Translations under genes and position numbers: made by a program
Assembly: GCA_022510425.1 (NCBI GenBank)
Contig: JAFLTO010000006.1
Coordinates: forward strand, 1 to 64,000
DNA from: Muribaculaceae bacterium
GTDB taxonomy: Bacteria > Bacteroidota > Bacteroidia > Bacteroidales > Muribaculaceae
Reading direction: 5' to 3'
DNA length: 64,000 nt
Shown: positions 7,788 to 25,907 of the stretch, one piece after another
Layout: every line of letters starts with the position of its first letter
How positions within the stretch are numbered: position 1 is the stretch's first letter
Notes under the pieces: model-generated
Database searches by the model: none
What the model saw: only the letters and a program-made list of their open reading frames with translations
What the model was told of the DNA's origin: nothing

Positions 7788-7846
7788 AAGACAATGACTC
7801 TCCGAGTATCAAATCTTTAGTAACTTTGCTTTTAAACAATTGGCAA

Positions 7847-9643
7847 ATGCAGCAGATTAGAAATATAGCTATAATCGCACATGTCGACCATGGTAAAACC
7901 ACTTTGGTTGACAAAATGCTAATGGCCGGCAATTTGTTCCGAGATAACCAAACCACCGGCGAACTTATCCTTGATAACAACGATCTTGAAAGAGAAAGAG
8001 GAATTACAATTCTGTCGAAAAATGTTTCCATTAATTATGGAGACACTAAAATAAACATCATAGACACTCCCGGACACGCTGACTTCGGCGGAGAGGTGGA
8101 ACGGGTATTGAATATGGCTGACGGTTGCCTGCTTTTGGTAGATGCTTTTGAAGGACCTATGCCTCAGACTCGTTTTGTGCTTCAAAAGGCTATTCAAATG
8201 GGGTTGAAACCTGTGGTGGTCATTAACAAAGTGGATAAACCTAACTGTCGTCCCGATGAAGTTAACGAAATGGTATTCGACCTTATGTTCAACCTTGGAG
8301 CAACAGAAGATCAACTCGATTTTCCTACAATTTATGGGAGTGCTAAACAAAATTGGATGAGCCTTGATTGGAAGGATAGGACAGACAATATCACTCCGGT
8401 GCTTGATGCCATTATTAAATACATCCCGGCTCCGGAAATTCTTGTGGGTGATCCTCAAATGCTCATCACATCTCTTGACTACAGTAGTTATGTGGGAAGA
8501 ATAGCAATCGGAAGAGTACATCGAGGCACTCTTAAAGAAGGTATGGAGGTGGCTTTATGTAAGAAAGATGGCTCTATAAGCAAACAAAAGATAAAGGAAC
8601 TACATGTCTTTGAGGGTATGGGCCGCAAGAAAGTGAAGGAAGTGAGCAGCGGAGATATTTGTGCCATTGTCGGTTTTGAAAATTTTGAAATAGGAGACAC
8701 TGTATCCGATTTAAACAATCCTGAAGCTTTGCCTCGAATAGCCATCGACGAGCCCACAATGTCAATGACCTTCACAATCAATGACTCTCCTTTCTTTGGC
8801 AAAGACGGAAAATATGTCACATCCCGACATATAGCGGAACGGTTGGAAAGAGAGCTTGACAAAAACCTTGCCTTGAGAGTGGAAAAGGGCGACACTGAGG
8901 ATAAATGGACTGTGTTTGGCAGAGGAGTGCTCCATCTTTCTATCCTGATTGAAACAATGCGTCGCGAAGGATATGAACTACAGGTGGGTCAGCCTCAGGT
9001 TATCATTAAAGAAATCGATGGAGTGAAATGCGAACCCATAGAGACCCTCACTGTTAATGTGCCTGAAGAATATAGCAGTAAGGTGGTAGATATGGTAACC
9101 CGTAGAAAAGGGGAAATAGTTTCTATGGATACCCGTAATGACCGTATTGATATCCAATTTAATATCCCTTCAAGAGGCATTATAGGGCTTCGCAATAATA
9201 TTCTCACAGCCACAGCCGGAGAAGCTATTATGGCTCATAGGTTCTTGGAGTATCAGCCTTGGAAAGGAGAAATTGAACGCAGAACCAATGGTAGTCTTAT
9301 AGCTATGGAGGCAGGCACAGCCTATGCTTATGCAATAGACAAGCTTCAAGATCGCGGAAGATTCTTTATTTTTCCGCAAGAAGAAGTGTACGCCGGCCAA
9401 GTGGTGGGAGAAAACGCTAAGGAAGGTGATATAGTGGTGAATGTAACCAAATCTAAGAAACTCACCAATATGCGTGCTTCCGGTGCCGACGACAAGGCCA
9501 GAATTGTGCCTCCTGTAGTATTCTCGCTTGAAGAAGCATTGGAATATATCAAGGAGGATGAATATGTGGAAGTGACCCCTCAACATATACGTCTTCGTAA
9601 GATAATTCTGGATGAAAATGAAAGAAAGAGGGCTAATAGATGA
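7847..9643 (+). CDS. typA: translational GTPase TypA/BipA
   Basis: About 598 residues. All GTPase motifs are in place: AHVDHGKTT (G1), RGITI (G2), [10 protein letters not shown] (G3) and NKVD (G4), followed by EF-G-like domains III and V and the family-specific C-terminal domain. TypA is a ribosome-associated GTPase needed under stress and low temperature. I place the start at the ATG at 7847 because the motif-bearing part begins [12 protein letters not shown] and because a TAACTTTG promoter box sits at 7821-7828, which makes a start at 7826 impossible for that transcript. Confidence 0.95.
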
Positions 9644-20818: not shown

Positions 20819-22129
20819 TTATTTGTTGAAAAGCTTCATAGCTTCGGATCGTGTGTTGTCGATTATATCGATGTAGGGTTTCATGGCCGAGTAGTCGCTG
20901 TGGCCTGTCCATTTCATCACTACGATTGGAGAAATACCCATTGACAGAGCGTTGCAGATGAAGGTGCGTCTTCCGCAATGGGTTGTGATGAATTCATATT
21001 TGGGCTTCACGATATCTTTCCTCTGGTTCCCATAAAAATTTGTTATCTTGACCGGCTCGTCAATTCCCGCCATTTTGGCGATAGCCTTCAGGTGGTAGTT
21101 CTGAATGTCATTGGGGATATGCGGGAGGGCAAAGTCGGAATCGGCTTCCTTGTATTTGTCAAGGATCTTTTTGGAGTGGCCGTTGAGGTCTATTACAAGA
21201 CGGGTGGAGGTTTTTTGCGACACCAATTCTATATGGTTTTCTTTCACGTCCACCTTCTTGAGATTGTAGGCGTCGGAAAAACGAAGAGAGGTGAAGCAAC
21301 AGAAACAGAAAAAATCCCGAATCATGTCCCATTGGCTTCCCTTTTGCAGCTCCATTGTCTCGAGCCTTGTCAGTTCCTCCCAATTCAGGAAAATGACAGG
21401 CTTGTCGTTCTCTTTAAGTTCCGGCTTGAAATTTCTCTCCGCTGAACGGTCCACGTATCCTTTATTGGCTGCCCAGCGCAGGAACCATTTGAGCATCCGG
21501 CAATTCTTCAGGATTACCGAGTTTGTATAACCGTTTTCCGTATCGTGTTCCTCGATCTTTGACTTGAGTCTTTTATATTTTTCTTTGTCGGCATATTTAT
21601 GTGAGAGCTTGTGTTTGGTCTGGAACTGTATAAAATTGTCCAAAGTCTTTTCATTGATATCTTCGAAAGTGAGATCAGGATTGAAGGCCTTTAAAATGGG
21701 TCTAAGGTTATTGACGGAACGTATGGTGTTGTCTGCCCAGTTCTTTTTGGAAGATCCCTCTCTTACAAATTCCGAGAAGGCTACCCATAGATCATAGCCA
21801 TTGTCTTCTTTTTTATTCGATAAAACGTCTTTAAGCTCCTGAGGTGTTGGCATCTTGTCAGATGCCTCAAAGGAATAGAAAGCGGCATCAATTTTAGATT
21901 CTAAATTTTCTAGAACCTTGTTTATGACAGCCGCCGGGATTTTATCCTTCCCGTGAAACGTGTTTCTCACGCATCGGGAGCCGTCCCATTTGATTTTCCC
22001 TTTCTCGTCTTTTCTGTCGACATGATATCCTGTGGAAACAGTAATGGATGTGCCATGGTTCCAAGTAATGCGAACCCTGAGCAACGTCCTGAGGAATATG
22101 TAGAGTATATTTCGTTTTATCGGTGTCAT
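20819..22129 (-). CDS. int: tyrosine-recombinase integrase
   Basis: A 436-residue phage integrase. The N-terminal part is an arm-DNA-binding domain of the Bacteroidetes type, followed by a SAM-like core-binding domain (residues about 110-210). The catalytic set is visible: Arg in FTSLRFSDAY, Lys in QKTSTR, HxxR in THCGRRTF near residue 383, His in WTGHSDY and the tyrosine in MKPYIDI. It should recombine the 53-bp att repeat at the adjacent end. Confidence 0.95.
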   Translation of the reverse strand: MTPIKRNILYIFLRTLLRVRITWNHGTSITVSTGYHVDRKDEKGKIKWDGSRCVRNTFHGKDKIPAAVINKVLENLESKIDAAFYSFEASDKMPTPQELKDVLSNKKEDNGYDLWVAFSEFVREGSSKKNWADNTIRSVNNLRPILKAFNPDLTFEDINEKTLDNFIQFQTKHKLSHKYADKEKYKRLKSKIEEHDTENGYTNSVILKNCRMLKWFLRWAANKGYVDRSAERNFKPELKENDKPVIFLNWEELTRLETMELQKGSQWDMIRDFFCFCCFTSLRFSDAYNLKKVDVKENHIELVSQKTSTRLVIDLNGHSKKILDKYKEADSDFALPHIPNDIQNYHLKAIAKMAGIDEPVKITNFYGNQRKDIVKPKYEFITTHCGRRTFICNALSMGISPIVVMKWTGHSDYSAMKPYIDIIDNTRSEAMKLFNK

Positions 22130-23220: not shown

Positions 23221-23853
23221 TTAGAGTTTGCGGGTGATGCCGATTACGCGGGCGATGCGGAGAATGTCTTCCTTGGAGACCTTGTAGTCGTTGTATTCAG
23301 GGTTGAAAGAGTGTAAGGTGATGTCTTTTTTGCCTTCCTTTGCTATTACTTTAATAGCGGCTCCTTCGTTGGTGTCGACCAAATACACCTCCCCGAGTTT
23401 CACGTCGTTCTTATCGTTCAATATCTCACAGAAAGCTATGTCGCCTGAATGGATATCGGGGAGCATTGAGTTGCCACGGATTTCTACCGAATAGGAATAA
23501 TTGCCGAACAGCGGGAAGAATTCCCTACTTTCTCCGTTAGGGCTTTGCCCGGTTCCGGCCATGAAACCAGCAGCGGCGGGCAAGTCGGAGAAGTGGGGCC
23601 GGGTTTCACGCGAGTCAATCTCCACGGAACCTTCACCGGTCCGCATGTACTCCTTATTGATAATAGTTGGAAATTTATCTGCTATTTTCTCTAATAAATT
23701 TATAGTCAGTTTCCGATTTCTATCTGCAAATGCATCACTTAGATAAGATGCACTCACTCCAATCTTTTTAGCAAAATCCTTTTTATCTTCCACTAAGAAT
23801 CTTCCATATAAATATCTATATGTTTTATCCAATCTAGTGATTAAAGAATCCAT
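23221..23853 (-). CDS. LexA/CI-like phage repressor with S24 peptidase domain
   Basis: A 210-residue repressor. Residues about 20-60 form a helix-turn-helix (DFAKKIGVSASYLSDAF). A self-cleavage Ala-Gly is at 95-96 (PAAAGF), the catalytic serine at 129 (RGNSMLPD) and the lysine at 168 (AAIKV). It should hold the lytic promoters shut and be inactivated by RecA-driven self-cleavage on DNA damage. It is divergent from the early operon, with palindromic operators between. Confidence 0.93.
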   Translation of the reverse strand: MDSLITRLDKTYRYLYGRFLVEDKKDFAKKIGVSASYLSDAFADRNRKLTINLLEKIADKFPTIINKEYMRTGEGSVEIDSRETRPHFSDLPAAAGFMAGTGQSPNGESREFFPLFGNYSYSVEIRGNSMLPDIHSGDIAFCEILNDKNDVKLGEVYLVDTNEGAAIKVIAKEGKKDITLHSFNPEYNDYKVSKEDILRIARVIGITRKL

Positions 23854-24220: not shown

Positions 24221-24536
24221 AGATGACCAATCCTCCGACTGCAGCAAGTTTGAATAAGACGTCAAGTGTTTTGGAAAAAACCGAAGGTTTGAGTCTTGAA
24301 GCCTCATCCTTGCAGATGAAAGAAGCTTCTTTAAGAGATTTGTCTTCTTTAACCACCACACAGCCGTTGTCAACGCTTATGAAACCAAGGTTTTGAAGGA
24401 TTTCAAGTGCGGAGACAGTATAATCCGGGAATTCCTCTTTAACCGTACTGACATAAATAATACCGGGATTATGATAATCCAGCCAACTTGCGATACGGGA
24501 TGCGGTGTGAAATATTTTCCAAGAATGAATTTCCAT
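24195..24536 (-). CDS. winged-helix-like protein with C-terminal membrane anchor
   Basis: A 113-residue protein. The first 70 residues have the helix-strand order of a small winged-helix domain (TVSALEILQNLGFISVDNGCVVVKED), the end is a hydrophobic helix (VLFKLAAVGGLVISIISLC). It has its own - strand promoter (-7 box at 24560-24567, TTG at 24589-24591, 21-bp spacer), so it is probably transcribed in the lysogen against the early operon. Function unknown. Confidence 0.55.
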   Translation of the reverse strand: MEIHSWKIFHTASRIASWLDYHNPGIIYVSTVKEEFPDYTVSALEILQNLGFISVDNGCVVVKEDKSLKEASFICKDEASRLKPSVFSKTLDVLFKLAAVGGLVISIISLCKS

Positions 24537-24581
24537 GGAGGTATGTTATGATTTAATTGCAAATATAATAAAAGTTACAAA

Positions 24582-24818
24582 ATGATAACAAAACGAGAAA
24601 AAGAGATGGAACAGAAAAATGAAGGAGTGATAGAAGAGATCCGGACATTGAGTTTTCCGGAAGCATTGAAGGCTATGAAGGTCGGTGAGACGAAGTATGC
24701 CCCTTTGGATTGTTCTGAAGGCTACGTGAGGGCTAAATGCTCGGATCTGAAGAGCGAAGGTTATGAGTTCGGCACAAGGATGATCAACGGGCGCAGGGCG
24801 ATAACGAGGTTTAAATGA
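24582..24818 (+). CDS. small phage protein, possible DNA-binding
   Basis: A 78-residue protein. Its second half, with YVRAKCSDLKSEGYEFGTRMINGRRAITRFK, reads like a short helix-turn-beta unit found in small Bacteroidales phage proteins where a helix set is followed by a basic strand. I cannot name a family. It is the next rightward early gene. Confidence 0.55.
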   Translation: MITKREKEMEQKNEGVIEEIRTLSFPEALKAMKVGETKYAPLDCSEGYVRAKCSDLKSEGYEFGTRMINGRRAITRFK

Positions 24819-24846
24819 GAGAATTCTTTGCAATAACAAATTAATA

Positions 24847-24876
24847 AACAAAGCAAATATAAGGAAAAAGAATGGA
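24847..24876 (+). repeat. 30-bp direct repeat, left copy
   Basis: Matches 25286-25315 at 29 of 30 positions. It ends in an ATG. Together the two copies bracket the RNA-controlled small-protein unit, as if the unit had been inserted by, or the flank duplicated through, recombination. Confidence 0.8.
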
Positions 24877-24900
24877 AAAGGGAAGGGTAAATAAAGAAAG

Positions 24901-24927
24901 AGGGAGGTTTATCCAACGCACCTCCCT
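24901..24927 (-). terminator. hairpin C, terminator of the 42-residue gene
   Basis: An 8-bp stem (24901-24908 with 24920-24927) and an 11-nt loop. On the - strand it is followed by a U-rich tail (TCTTTCTTTATTT). The loop carries GTTGGAT in the - strand RNA, the complement of the loop in hairpin B. Confidence 0.75.
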
Positions 24928-24945
24928 TGGGTTTACCGGAGAGTC

Positions 24946-25074
24946 TTATTTAACCGGGACCCAGAAGCAGAAGACTTTCGCCTTCTTGGGGAAATATATT
25001 TTCCCGTCCTTCCTGATGTACCTGGCAAACACGAGCTTCTCAAGCTTACCATTATTGAATCTAAGATGGGGCAT
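24946..25074 (-). CDS. 42-residue basic protein under RNA control
   Basis: A very small protein with about 11 Lys/Arg against 2 acidic residues and an aromatic end (VFCFWVPVK). The start is supported by an unusually strong ribosome site: GGAGGT at 25081-25086, 6 bp before the ATG, in a lineage that seldom uses one. That site lies in an inverted repeat with the leader (see the RNA entry), and a terminator follows. I recognise no named family. A toxin, an anti-host peptide or a regulator are all possible; the tight RNA control makes a harmful product a reasonable guess. Confidence 0.65.
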   Translation of the reverse strand: MPHLRFNNGKLEKLVFARYIRKDGKIYFPKKAKVFCFWVPVK

Positions 25075-25115
25075 TCTAACACCTCCTTTCTGCCGTAAGA
25101 ACCGGCGTTTTGCAT

Positions 25116-25168
25116 GTATTGCTATCCAACAGCAATACAAAAAACCGGGCAGTTGGATTACCCGGTTT
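25116..25168 (-). promoter_or_regulatory. hairpins A and B with complementary loops
   Basis: Hairpin B: 8-bp stem 25142-25149 with 25161-25168, 11-nt loop, followed on the - strand by six U (25144-25139), so it is an intrinsic terminator. Hairpin A: 8-bp stem 25116-25123 with 25131-25138, 7-nt loop. In the - strand RNA loop B has ATCCAAC and loop A is GTTGGAT, complementary over all 7 bases, as is loop C. Kissing-loop contact or alternative pairing is therefore possible. Confidence 0.75.
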
Positions 25169-25246
25169 GTACCTTTCTCATTGAAATAGAGGATGGTTTC
25201 GTTAGGTGGTCCAGGAGGTGTTAGTTCTTAAAGACCATCTTAGATT
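25139..25246 (-). ncRNA. short RNA complementary to the start of the 42-residue gene
   Basis: Expected product of the promoter at 25252-25282 ending at hairpin B, about 105 nt. Its 5' region (25213-25224 and 25235-25247) is an inverted copy of 25076-25087 and 25057-25069: 12 and 13 exact bases around short unequal gaps. Thus the RNA can pair with the ribosome site and the first codons of the downstream gene, leaving the AUG in the internal loop. It could act in trans as a separate RNA or in cis when transcription reads through. Existence of the RNA is predicted, not observed. Confidence 0.6.
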
Positions 25247-25251
25247 CGATG

Positions 25252-25282
25252 CAAAGATAATCATAAAAAACGAATTGAACAA
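25252..25282 (-). promoter_or_regulatory. promoter of the short RNA
   Basis: On the - strand TTG (25282-25280) and TATCTTTG (25259-25252) are 20 bp apart, a full match to the host consensus. Confidence 0.75.
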
Positions 25283-25285
25283 ACC

Positions 25286-25315
25286 AACAAAGCAAATATA
25301 AGAAAAAAGAATGGA
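25286..25315 (+). repeat. 30-bp direct repeat, right copy
   Basis: Partner of 24847-24876 with a single mismatch; it holds the ribosome region and ATG of the next + strand gene. Confidence 0.8.
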
Positions 25316-25556
25316 TAGGGACAGTTTTTATTTCATTAAAAAAATTGAAAGTTCAAGGCGAAGGAGAGAAAATATGGAAAGGACGATGCGAGGGGAACCT
25401 TTACTTCCTGACATACCGGATCCCGATGAAGAAAAAATAAAAAAATTAAAAAGGCCATTGAGAATTCTGGTTGCAATCATCGGCTTATTCCTTATAGCAC
25501 TAACACTTTTATTTTTTTCAGGGATTGCATGGTTGATCAGGTCAATGTGGGAATAA
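25311..25556 (+). CDS. single-pass membrane protein
   Basis: An 81-residue protein with a charged N-terminal 55 residues and one transmembrane helix (about 50-76). An early-region phage gene with no recognised family. Its ribosome region is the right copy of the 30-bp repeat, and its end overlaps the opposite gene by 15 bp. Confidence 0.55.
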   Translation: MDRDSFYFIKKIESSRRRRENMERTMRGEPLLPDIPDPDEEKIKKLKRPLRILVAIIGLFLIALTLLFFSGIAWLIRSMWE

Positions 25557-25907
25557 AGGTAGAAATCTTGAAATATAGTCAATACAGGTCATGAGAGCAG
25601 CCCCATGTTCAGCACTGCTGAAGAATTGATTTAATAAACGCTTCCGGTTGTCTTTAAGGAACTGTTCATGCTTTCTCTTGATTGAGATTCTTATAATATC
25701 AATTCTGTCATGATCTACTTCCACAAAACCTTTGGTCCATACCAGATGCCTATTGTCATGAAGCCATCTCAAAGTTTCTTCACCGAATCCATGAGAATTG
25801 GCGGCCAAAGCATAAGGATTAAAACATTTAATATTTGGTCTTTCATGAATCAAAGTGAGCACATTAAGGACTGCCTCACAAAAGAAAGGATTATCTAATT
25901 CATTCAT
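25542..25907 (-). CDS. hypothetical protein, counter-oriented early-region gene
   Basis: A 121-residue soluble protein with its own host-type promoter (CAAAAATA at 25926-25933, CAA at 25953-25955 on the + strand, 19-bp spacer). Like 24195-24536 it lies against the early operon and is probably active in the lysogen. The sequence PYALAANSHGFGEETLRWLHDN may contain a helix-turn-helix, but this is weak. Confidence 0.55.
   Translation of the reverse strand: MNELDNPFFCEAVLNVLTLIHERPNIKCFNPYALAANSHGFGEETLRWLHDNRHLVWTKGFVEVDHDRIDIIRISIKRKHEQFLKDNRKRLLNQFFSSAEHGAALMTCIDYISRFLPLFPH

Follow-up and report, generated by a model that had tools for sequence, protein, structure and literature searches.

The window, i.e., the whole stretch of 64,000 nucleotides analyzed in this study, contains an apparently complete tailed prophage that extends from an integrase to an endolysin (20819-59784). 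The integrase gene (20819-22129) and an S24 repressor gene (23221-23853) are followed by genes for an exonuclease, helicases, and a tape-measure-like protein, and further genes encode a head protein, the portal, the terminase, and the endolysin. Between the repressor and the early genes, the - strand carries a small cassette (25283-24902), the parts of which are arranged in the order of promoter, leader with two antisense arms, hairpins B, A, and D, extended Shine-Dalgarno (SD) sequence, open reading frame (ORF), and hairpin C, as follows:

25252-25283, - strand: Bacteroidetes-type promoter with a -33 TTTG and a -7 TATCTTTG, read from the sequence
25138-25246, - strand: putative short antisense RNA of approximately 109 nt, with both ends predicted
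25235-25250, - strand: antisense arm a1, which reads ATCGAATCTAAGATGG in the RNA and has ORF codons (25054-25069) as its partner, from the inverted repeat and the pairing test
25213-25224, - strand: antisense arm a2, which reads CTAACACCTCCT in the RNA and has the SD region (25076-25087) as its partner, from the inverted repeat
25142-25168, - strand: hairpin B with the loop ATCCAAC, the intrinsic terminator at which the short RNA is predicted to end, from a terminator scan
25115-25140, - strand: leader hairpin A, whose GTTGGAT loop complements that of B, read from the sequence and from the 15-locus comparison
25092-25106, - strand: hairpin D (GCCGGTTCTTACGGC), immediately 5' of the SD, read from the sequence
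25078-25091, - strand: extended SD AGAAAGGAGGTGTT, perfectly complementary to the host 16S 3' tail AACACCTCCTTTCT
24946-25074, - strand: basic 42-codon ORF (P0001), from the ORF call and an alignment of 15 members
24902-24926, - strand: hairpin C, the predicted terminator behind the ORF, whose GTTGGAT loop complements that of B, read from the sequence

The promoter, which we name by what we take to be the Bacteroidetes consensus, consists of TTTG (25283-25280), a 20-nt spacing, and TATCTTTG (25259-25252) on the - strand, and it was not among the predictions of a sigma-70 scan. This reading agrees with the first-pass annotation, which had placed a full promoter upstream of the RNA, and the intrinsic terminator that it assigned to the end of the short RNA is likewise present as hairpin B (25168-25142; a 10-bp stem, a 7-nt loop, and a T run). 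The proposed inverted copies were also recovered, with 12/12 matching bases for a2 and 15/16, including 13 exact ones, for a1, the first bases of which may lie upstream of the RNA start; the ORF just downstream (25074-24946) and the complementary loops of A, B, and C are as described. The statement that all stems are 8 bp applies to C and not to B. Repeats resembling hairpin D were seen by eye in several loci. The arms of hairpin C resemble GGAGG and CCTCC in the window (24902-24926) and in several loci, so C might also hide or mimic an SD.

A 360-nt RNA of the cassette folds at -135.9 kcal/mol (z = -7.2), a value that none of 100 shuffles equaled; the stability comes from pairing of the leader with the SD and the first codons. 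The longest exact inverted repeat between leader and start is 13 nt in the cassette and at most 11 nt in 40 other genes of the window; however, one of these 40 genes reaches a duplex energy of -40.9, close to the -41.0 of the cassette. The window alone is therefore weaker evidence than the relatives, and this near-equality is what would be said in favor of a chance or neutral inverted duplication with no function.

The first-pass annotation had also described a direct repeat that flanks the whole unit. The repeat itself is present (35 nt, 91% identity, 24847-24881 and 25286-25320), but no equal was found in the 14 relatives described below when approximately 230 nt on each side was compared (less for L277); the nearest cases, i.e., 27 nt in L011 (its repeated promoter), 21 nt in L076, and 17 nt in L269, are all mismatched. 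The repeat was accordingly rejected as a component of the unit. The copies at 24847-24881 and 25286-25320 and a further one at 24559-24573 center on TATATTTGC. This sequence could be a -7 element of the Bacteroidetes type, and the repeat may accordingly derive from a duplicated promoter.

When 297 genomes of the family were searched with the protein, 9 of them, including that of the window, gave a match; the match in G023 proved unrelated on reading. Later searches covered 393 genomes of the order, 111 of the genus, 397 of the family, and 395 of the phylum, together with viral contigs, and the protein matches L010 and L016-L021 were dropped as unrelated. Fifteen distinct loci (the window, L005, L029, L007, L008, L009, L011, L030, L033, L277, L034, L269, L022, L076, and L014) have the same layout, with the parts in the same order and the leader on the strand of the ORF in every case. 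The 14 diverged relatives come from genomes of the same family or order and from viral contigs, and their proteins, which like that of the window fall within 40 to 46 residues, are 33 to 59% identical to it. Copies of 4 of the 15 loci are found in metagenome-assembled genomes labeled Bacteroides (n = 2), Prevotella, and Barnesiella. The cassette is rare, being detected in only 11 of 397 genomes of the family; the genome searches score part of the candidates, so absences are soft. The first-pass annotation had made its proposal depend on the retention of the paired arms and of the ORF in relatives, and both are retained.

Two pattern scans of viral sequences returned at least 120 and 113 stretches, respectively. 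All loci gathered by then held 264 sites with an SD and a start codon, and among the best 45 of these 264 by inverted-repeat length, three scan loci with the layout were recognized, i.e., L076, L170, which encodes the same protein as L269, and L210, which is the contig of L022. A leader model built without the ORF found 8 of 287 family genomes below an E value of 1e-6, all of which have the protein; since these genomes were in the alignment of the model, the result says only that there is no further strong leader without the protein. No leader paired with a different ORF was found among the 287 genomes, of which the search scores part of the candidates. Weaker matches of the leader model were other terminators, the orphan units of G189 described below, or the opposite strand of this locus, and the weak RNA-model matches L299, L310, L311, and L314 were on reading other terminators. 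A short-RNA model of one subfamily, run against the 111 genus genomes, matched its four source genomes and gave one weak match that was rejected.

Homologues of the protein that have no recognized antisense leader are also present (L013, L015, L023-L025, L028, L031, and L280-L282; L025 and L280-L282 were judged by eye and L024 was unread), which indicates that the protein is not always locked. One of them, L280 (G888, elsewhere in the phylum, approximately 1400-1570), has an extended SD, AGAAAGGAGGTGAT, and no antisense leader by eye. Near the L007 cassette, the opposite strand (L027, reverse strand near 2938) carries another ORF that has an extended SD, and a 16-nt SD stretch is common to this ORF and the cassette as an inverted repeat.

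In all 15 loci, the B loop is complementary to the C loop over 5 to 7 nt, and in 10 of them it is complementary to the A loop over 5 to 8 nt. A matching A is absent in L011, L033, L277, and L034, which form one protein subfamily, and the A of L008 is mismatched. By our count there are seven loop types, side swaps included; reversed loops are seen in L009 (B GTTGTAGG with A CCTACAA) and L022 (B GGTAGGAT with A ATCCTAC). The mean B-C complementarity was 6.1 nt for cognate and 3.4 nt for noncognate pairs with hairpins chosen by eye, and 5.6 and 3.2 nt with hairpins chosen automatically; 0 of 20,000 permutations reached the observed value in either case, under an assumption of independence that is not true of the 15 loci. 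The automatic picker chose the same B, taking an inner stem of it in L008, and failed to find C in two loci (L277 and L076); the test still held. When one locus per loop type was taken, only the true assignment of 5,040 attained the observed sum for all 24 choices, in a test that covers the loops only.

The leader is complementary to the region of the SD and start in 15/15 loci, where binding is predicted. Its mean energy is -49.8 kcal/mol against its own ribosome-binding region and -31.5 kcal/mol against noncognate ones. For the first 40 nt of the ORF only, the corresponding values are -25.1 and -14.1 kcal/mol, and the own ORF is the best partner in 13/15 loci; the own pair is second in L033 (one better) and fifth in L014 (four better). 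Diverged loci have retained both pairings despite changed letters, and this covariation contradicts a chance or neutral inverted duplication, the probability of which we regard as negligible. That very different relatives keep the same pairing looks like a real RNA lock. At the level of sequence comparison, the 15 covarying loci strongly support the proposal that an antisense leader on the same strand, together with matching terminator loops, places a tiny basic ORF under RNA control.

A TAnnTTTG element is located upstream of B in 14/15 loci (all except L009), and the end rule used for the window gives short RNAs of 81 to 125 nt in these 14. No -7 element of this promoter type lies between B and the ORF in any of the 15 loci, and the mRNA would therefore most simply arise by read-through of B. 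The ORF is followed by a terminator hairpin within 22 nt in all 15 loci.

The 14-nt SD of the window, AGAAAGGAGGTGTT, complements the 16S 3' tail of its host, the one 16S tail that was compared, without a mismatch. The core AAAGGAGG precedes the ORF in 15/15 loci, AGAAAGGAGG in 14/15, and the full 14 nt in 7/15. The 12-mer AGAAAGGAGGTG occurs at three sites in the 2.9-Mb assembly, i.e., in the cassette, opposite the 16S end, and once inside an open frame. In Bacteroidia, the ribosomes reportedly keep the 16S tail hidden and ignore SDs, and an extended SD is reported to be needed for rpsU; according to the same report, no Bacteroidales fall within its criteria for rpsU (PMC9976891). The rpsU gene of Flavobacteriales, which is involved in bS21 autoregulation, resembles the cassette in having extended SD-anti-SD complementarity in Bacteroidia, but, as far as the same source describes it, rpsU is a ribosomal gene with no antisense lock (PMC9976891).

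The first-pass annotation had stated that no described system has this layout, which is too strong in view of two precedents, P1 c4-icd-ant and Gifsy-1 IsrK-orf45. The genes c4, icd, and ant of P1 form one operon, and C4 RNA is released by cleavage of a longer transcript; multicopy C4-like RNAs are reported in Acinetobacter baumannii (PMC8198154 and PMC5320573). C4 of P1/P7 is similar to the cassette RNA in that an antisense RNA lies upstream of its targets in one operon, is followed by the small host-affecting icd, and pairs with its target through two loops. As far as these sources describe it, C4 differs in being cut by RNase P and in serving the ant operon, whereas the cassette RNA is predicted to end at an intrinsic terminator; furthermore, the cassette has one ORF with its own terminator, has complementary terminator loops, and has no C4 match in Rfam. 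With the ORF on the same strand and no second -7 element, the layout may be of the C4 type, with cotranscription predicted. In Gifsy-1, an intrinsic terminator ends IsrK, and part of the transcription continues past it into an ORF of 45 codons. IsrK-orf45-anrP resembles the cassette as proposed below in having one promoter, a terminated short RNA, partial read-through, and a cis pairing that leaves the mRNA inactive (PMC4825925). According to the same work, IsrK differs as a trans activator that serves a downstream antirepressor and in that the orf45 protein is variable, whereas the cassette protein is conserved; no isrK match was obtained. The par locus of pAD1 (RNA I/RNA II, Fst) combines a contact between terminator loops with another pairing that spans the start of a very small ORF, and it occurs at plasmid and chromosomal loci; it has convergent RNAs, one shared bidirectional terminator, and direct repeats (PMC7472228). 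The cassette, in contrast, has its RNA and ORF on the same strand in 15/15 loci, an inverted repeat, and two terminators, and no convergent arrangement was found.

We propose, with slightly better than even confidence, that the locus is an autonomous self-silencing small-gene cassette with an RNA lock and read-through, the product of which is most likely harmful, as in the logic of type I toxin-antitoxin systems. One promoter would give mostly the short RNA that stops at terminator B, and polymerase that passes B would make the mRNA of the basic protein of 40 to 46 residues. The SD and the first codons would be masked both by the short RNA, acting in trans, and by the leader of identical sequence, acting in cis, and the B loop would contact the C loop and, in most loci, the A loop. 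Release would follow if synthesis of the short RNA stopped and unpaired mRNA persisted.

Folds computed without the kissing contacts bear on the repression step. The start codon is predicted to be unpaired at a mean of 0.22 with the leader or the RNA and 0.55 in leaderless mRNA, and the SD at 0.29 with the leader, 0.27 with the RNA, and 0.40 leaderless; the SD is still largely paired in some leaderless folds. The start codon of the window shows the opposite trend (0.85 with the leader and 0.18 without). The modeled accessibility supports repression on average for the start codon, weakly for the SD, and not for the start of the window. An IsrK-like role, in which the short RNA would activate the read-through mRNA in trans, follows the same transcript logic, and IsrK in trans increases anrP translation approximately 140-fold according to its report (PMC4825925). 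However, the arms of the cassette RNA, unlike those of IsrK, cover the SD and start directly, so a second copy would compete for the same site and repression is expected; in the models, moreover, the RNA closes the start codon of leaderless mRNA again on average. We consider activation very unlikely.

The 42-residue product is basic, and its AlphaFold2 model is all-β with no helix (mean pLDDT = 90, pTM = 0.52). Type I toxins are usually, but not universally, small hydrophobic membrane peptides, and Fst is a membrane peptide; the basic sequence and the all-β model of the cassette product do not suggest such a peptide. The comparison with type I toxin-antitoxin systems made in the first-pass annotation, and hence any toxicity, is suggested by the regulation and not by the protein. 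The product reached no family in Pfam, NCBIfam, or PADLOC, and PHROG gave weak matches only (phrog_4533 for 3/15 members, best E = 0.0011), none of which has a named function. A PDB sequence search gave nothing below an E value of 0.25, and a fold search of PDB and BFVD gave nothing below 0.001, the best BFVD match being a 48-residue phage protein (E = 0.052). Named phages had no DNA match, named phages and plasmids had protein matches only at E values of 0.4 and 0.1, and the L023 protein had no match in named phages. C4 and isrK, both of which are families in Rfam, were absent among Rfam matches up to an E value of 5 in the 15 loci. Rfam gave nothing up to an E value of 1 in window positions 24400-25800, and the leaders of L030 and L007 matched only anti-hemB (E = 0.06 and 25.8 bits for L030 and E = 1.3 and 21.1 bits for L007; the gathering score is 49.5). 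As no leader reached any Rfam gathering score, the RNA looks like an undescribed family.

The cassette is found in varied surroundings. Its neighbors are of phage type in the window, in L287 (G223), and in L292 (G241), and three loci are on viral contigs (L076 and L269, both with repressor-like genes, and L022). Chromosomal-type neighbors were seen in G056, G713, G714, and G719, where one or two genes were scanned per locus, and include an RNase E/G gene with a NUBPL-type NTPase gene and a GH97 gene with an α-amylase gene. A tRNA gene is near the cassette in G080, and a domain like an integrase arm was just under the cutoff in G054. The cassette of L008 lies between the RNase E/G and NUBPL-type genes; at the same site, G012 (L328, 647-1107) has by eye a decayed promoter- and leader-like remnant with no ORF. 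Such stand-alone contexts are the expected look of a self-contained moron or toxin-antitoxin cassette.

The same-transcript antisense layout, for which C4-icd-ant and IsrK-orf45-anrP are precedents, would also suit a phage regulator. The short RNA would then belong to a switch of lysogeny or superinfection immunity, and the small protein would serve the development of the phage or its takeover of the host and be no addiction toxin. Genes for a repressor and an integrase-like protein lie close to the cassette both in the window and in L076; the integrase of L076 is recognized by its start, which resembles that of the window. Several observations argue against this reading: the chromosomal-type neighbors at the four loci above, the location of L287 beside an endolysin gene and of L292 on a contig with a DnaB-like replicative helicase gene, the orientation of the cassette opposed to the nearest mechanically called ORFs on both sides in L287, L292, L293, L022, and L269, and the terminator close behind the ORF throughout. 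A phage regulator appears unlikely. The stand-alone cassette at varied positions is also consistent with an antiphage (abortive infection) moron, the lock of which would open once an infecting phage shuts off host transcription. In hok/sok, the labile silencer is lost first, and by analogy a labile silencer from the sole promoter would be the first to fall. The lack of a PADLOC match for the protein argues against such a moron, which we regard as rather improbable.

Self-silencing by RNA, our preferred reading, can also be viewed in the light of units that have no ORF. On the reverse strand of G189 (L288, approximately 7800-8110), three tandem ORF-less units lie 3' of an ORF cassette, each with a -7 element, a leader, a hairpin, and an identical B hairpin, and their antisense arms differ. 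The best partner of unit 3 is the ORF start of L034, which is in another genome of the genus (-45.8, next best -40.5), whereas no clear partner emerged for unit 2 (best -33.2) or unit 4 (best -27.3). ORF-less RNA units would be expected if the RNA acts in trans. A more speculative extension, which we consider doubtful, is that the loci form a Bacteroidales family of RNA-locked toxins that are translated only through a full-length SD-anti-SD helix and would hence respond to ribosomes whose 16S tail is free, and that the ORF-less units are an RNA "immunity array" against other alleles.

The cassette is absent from Rfam, Pfam, NCBIfam, and PADLOC and from the open-access literature searched. We regard the RNA-locked cassette as real and conserved, and it appears to be undescribed; it joins known same-transcript antisense control to the logic of type I toxin-antitoxin systems. 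If this is true, Bacteroidales would have a system for silencing a small protein by RNA that is new to the family libraries searched. The system would combine kissing terminator loops with an antisense leader on the same transcript, each of which is already known, and its covariation is clear enough for mutations to be designed from it. The units of G189 may be a case of antisense-RNA arrays against rival cassettes. The most interesting question is why so strong an SD lies beneath a double lock, and the cassette would be a natural test of when the ribosomes of Bacteroidia use the Shine-Dalgarno sequence.
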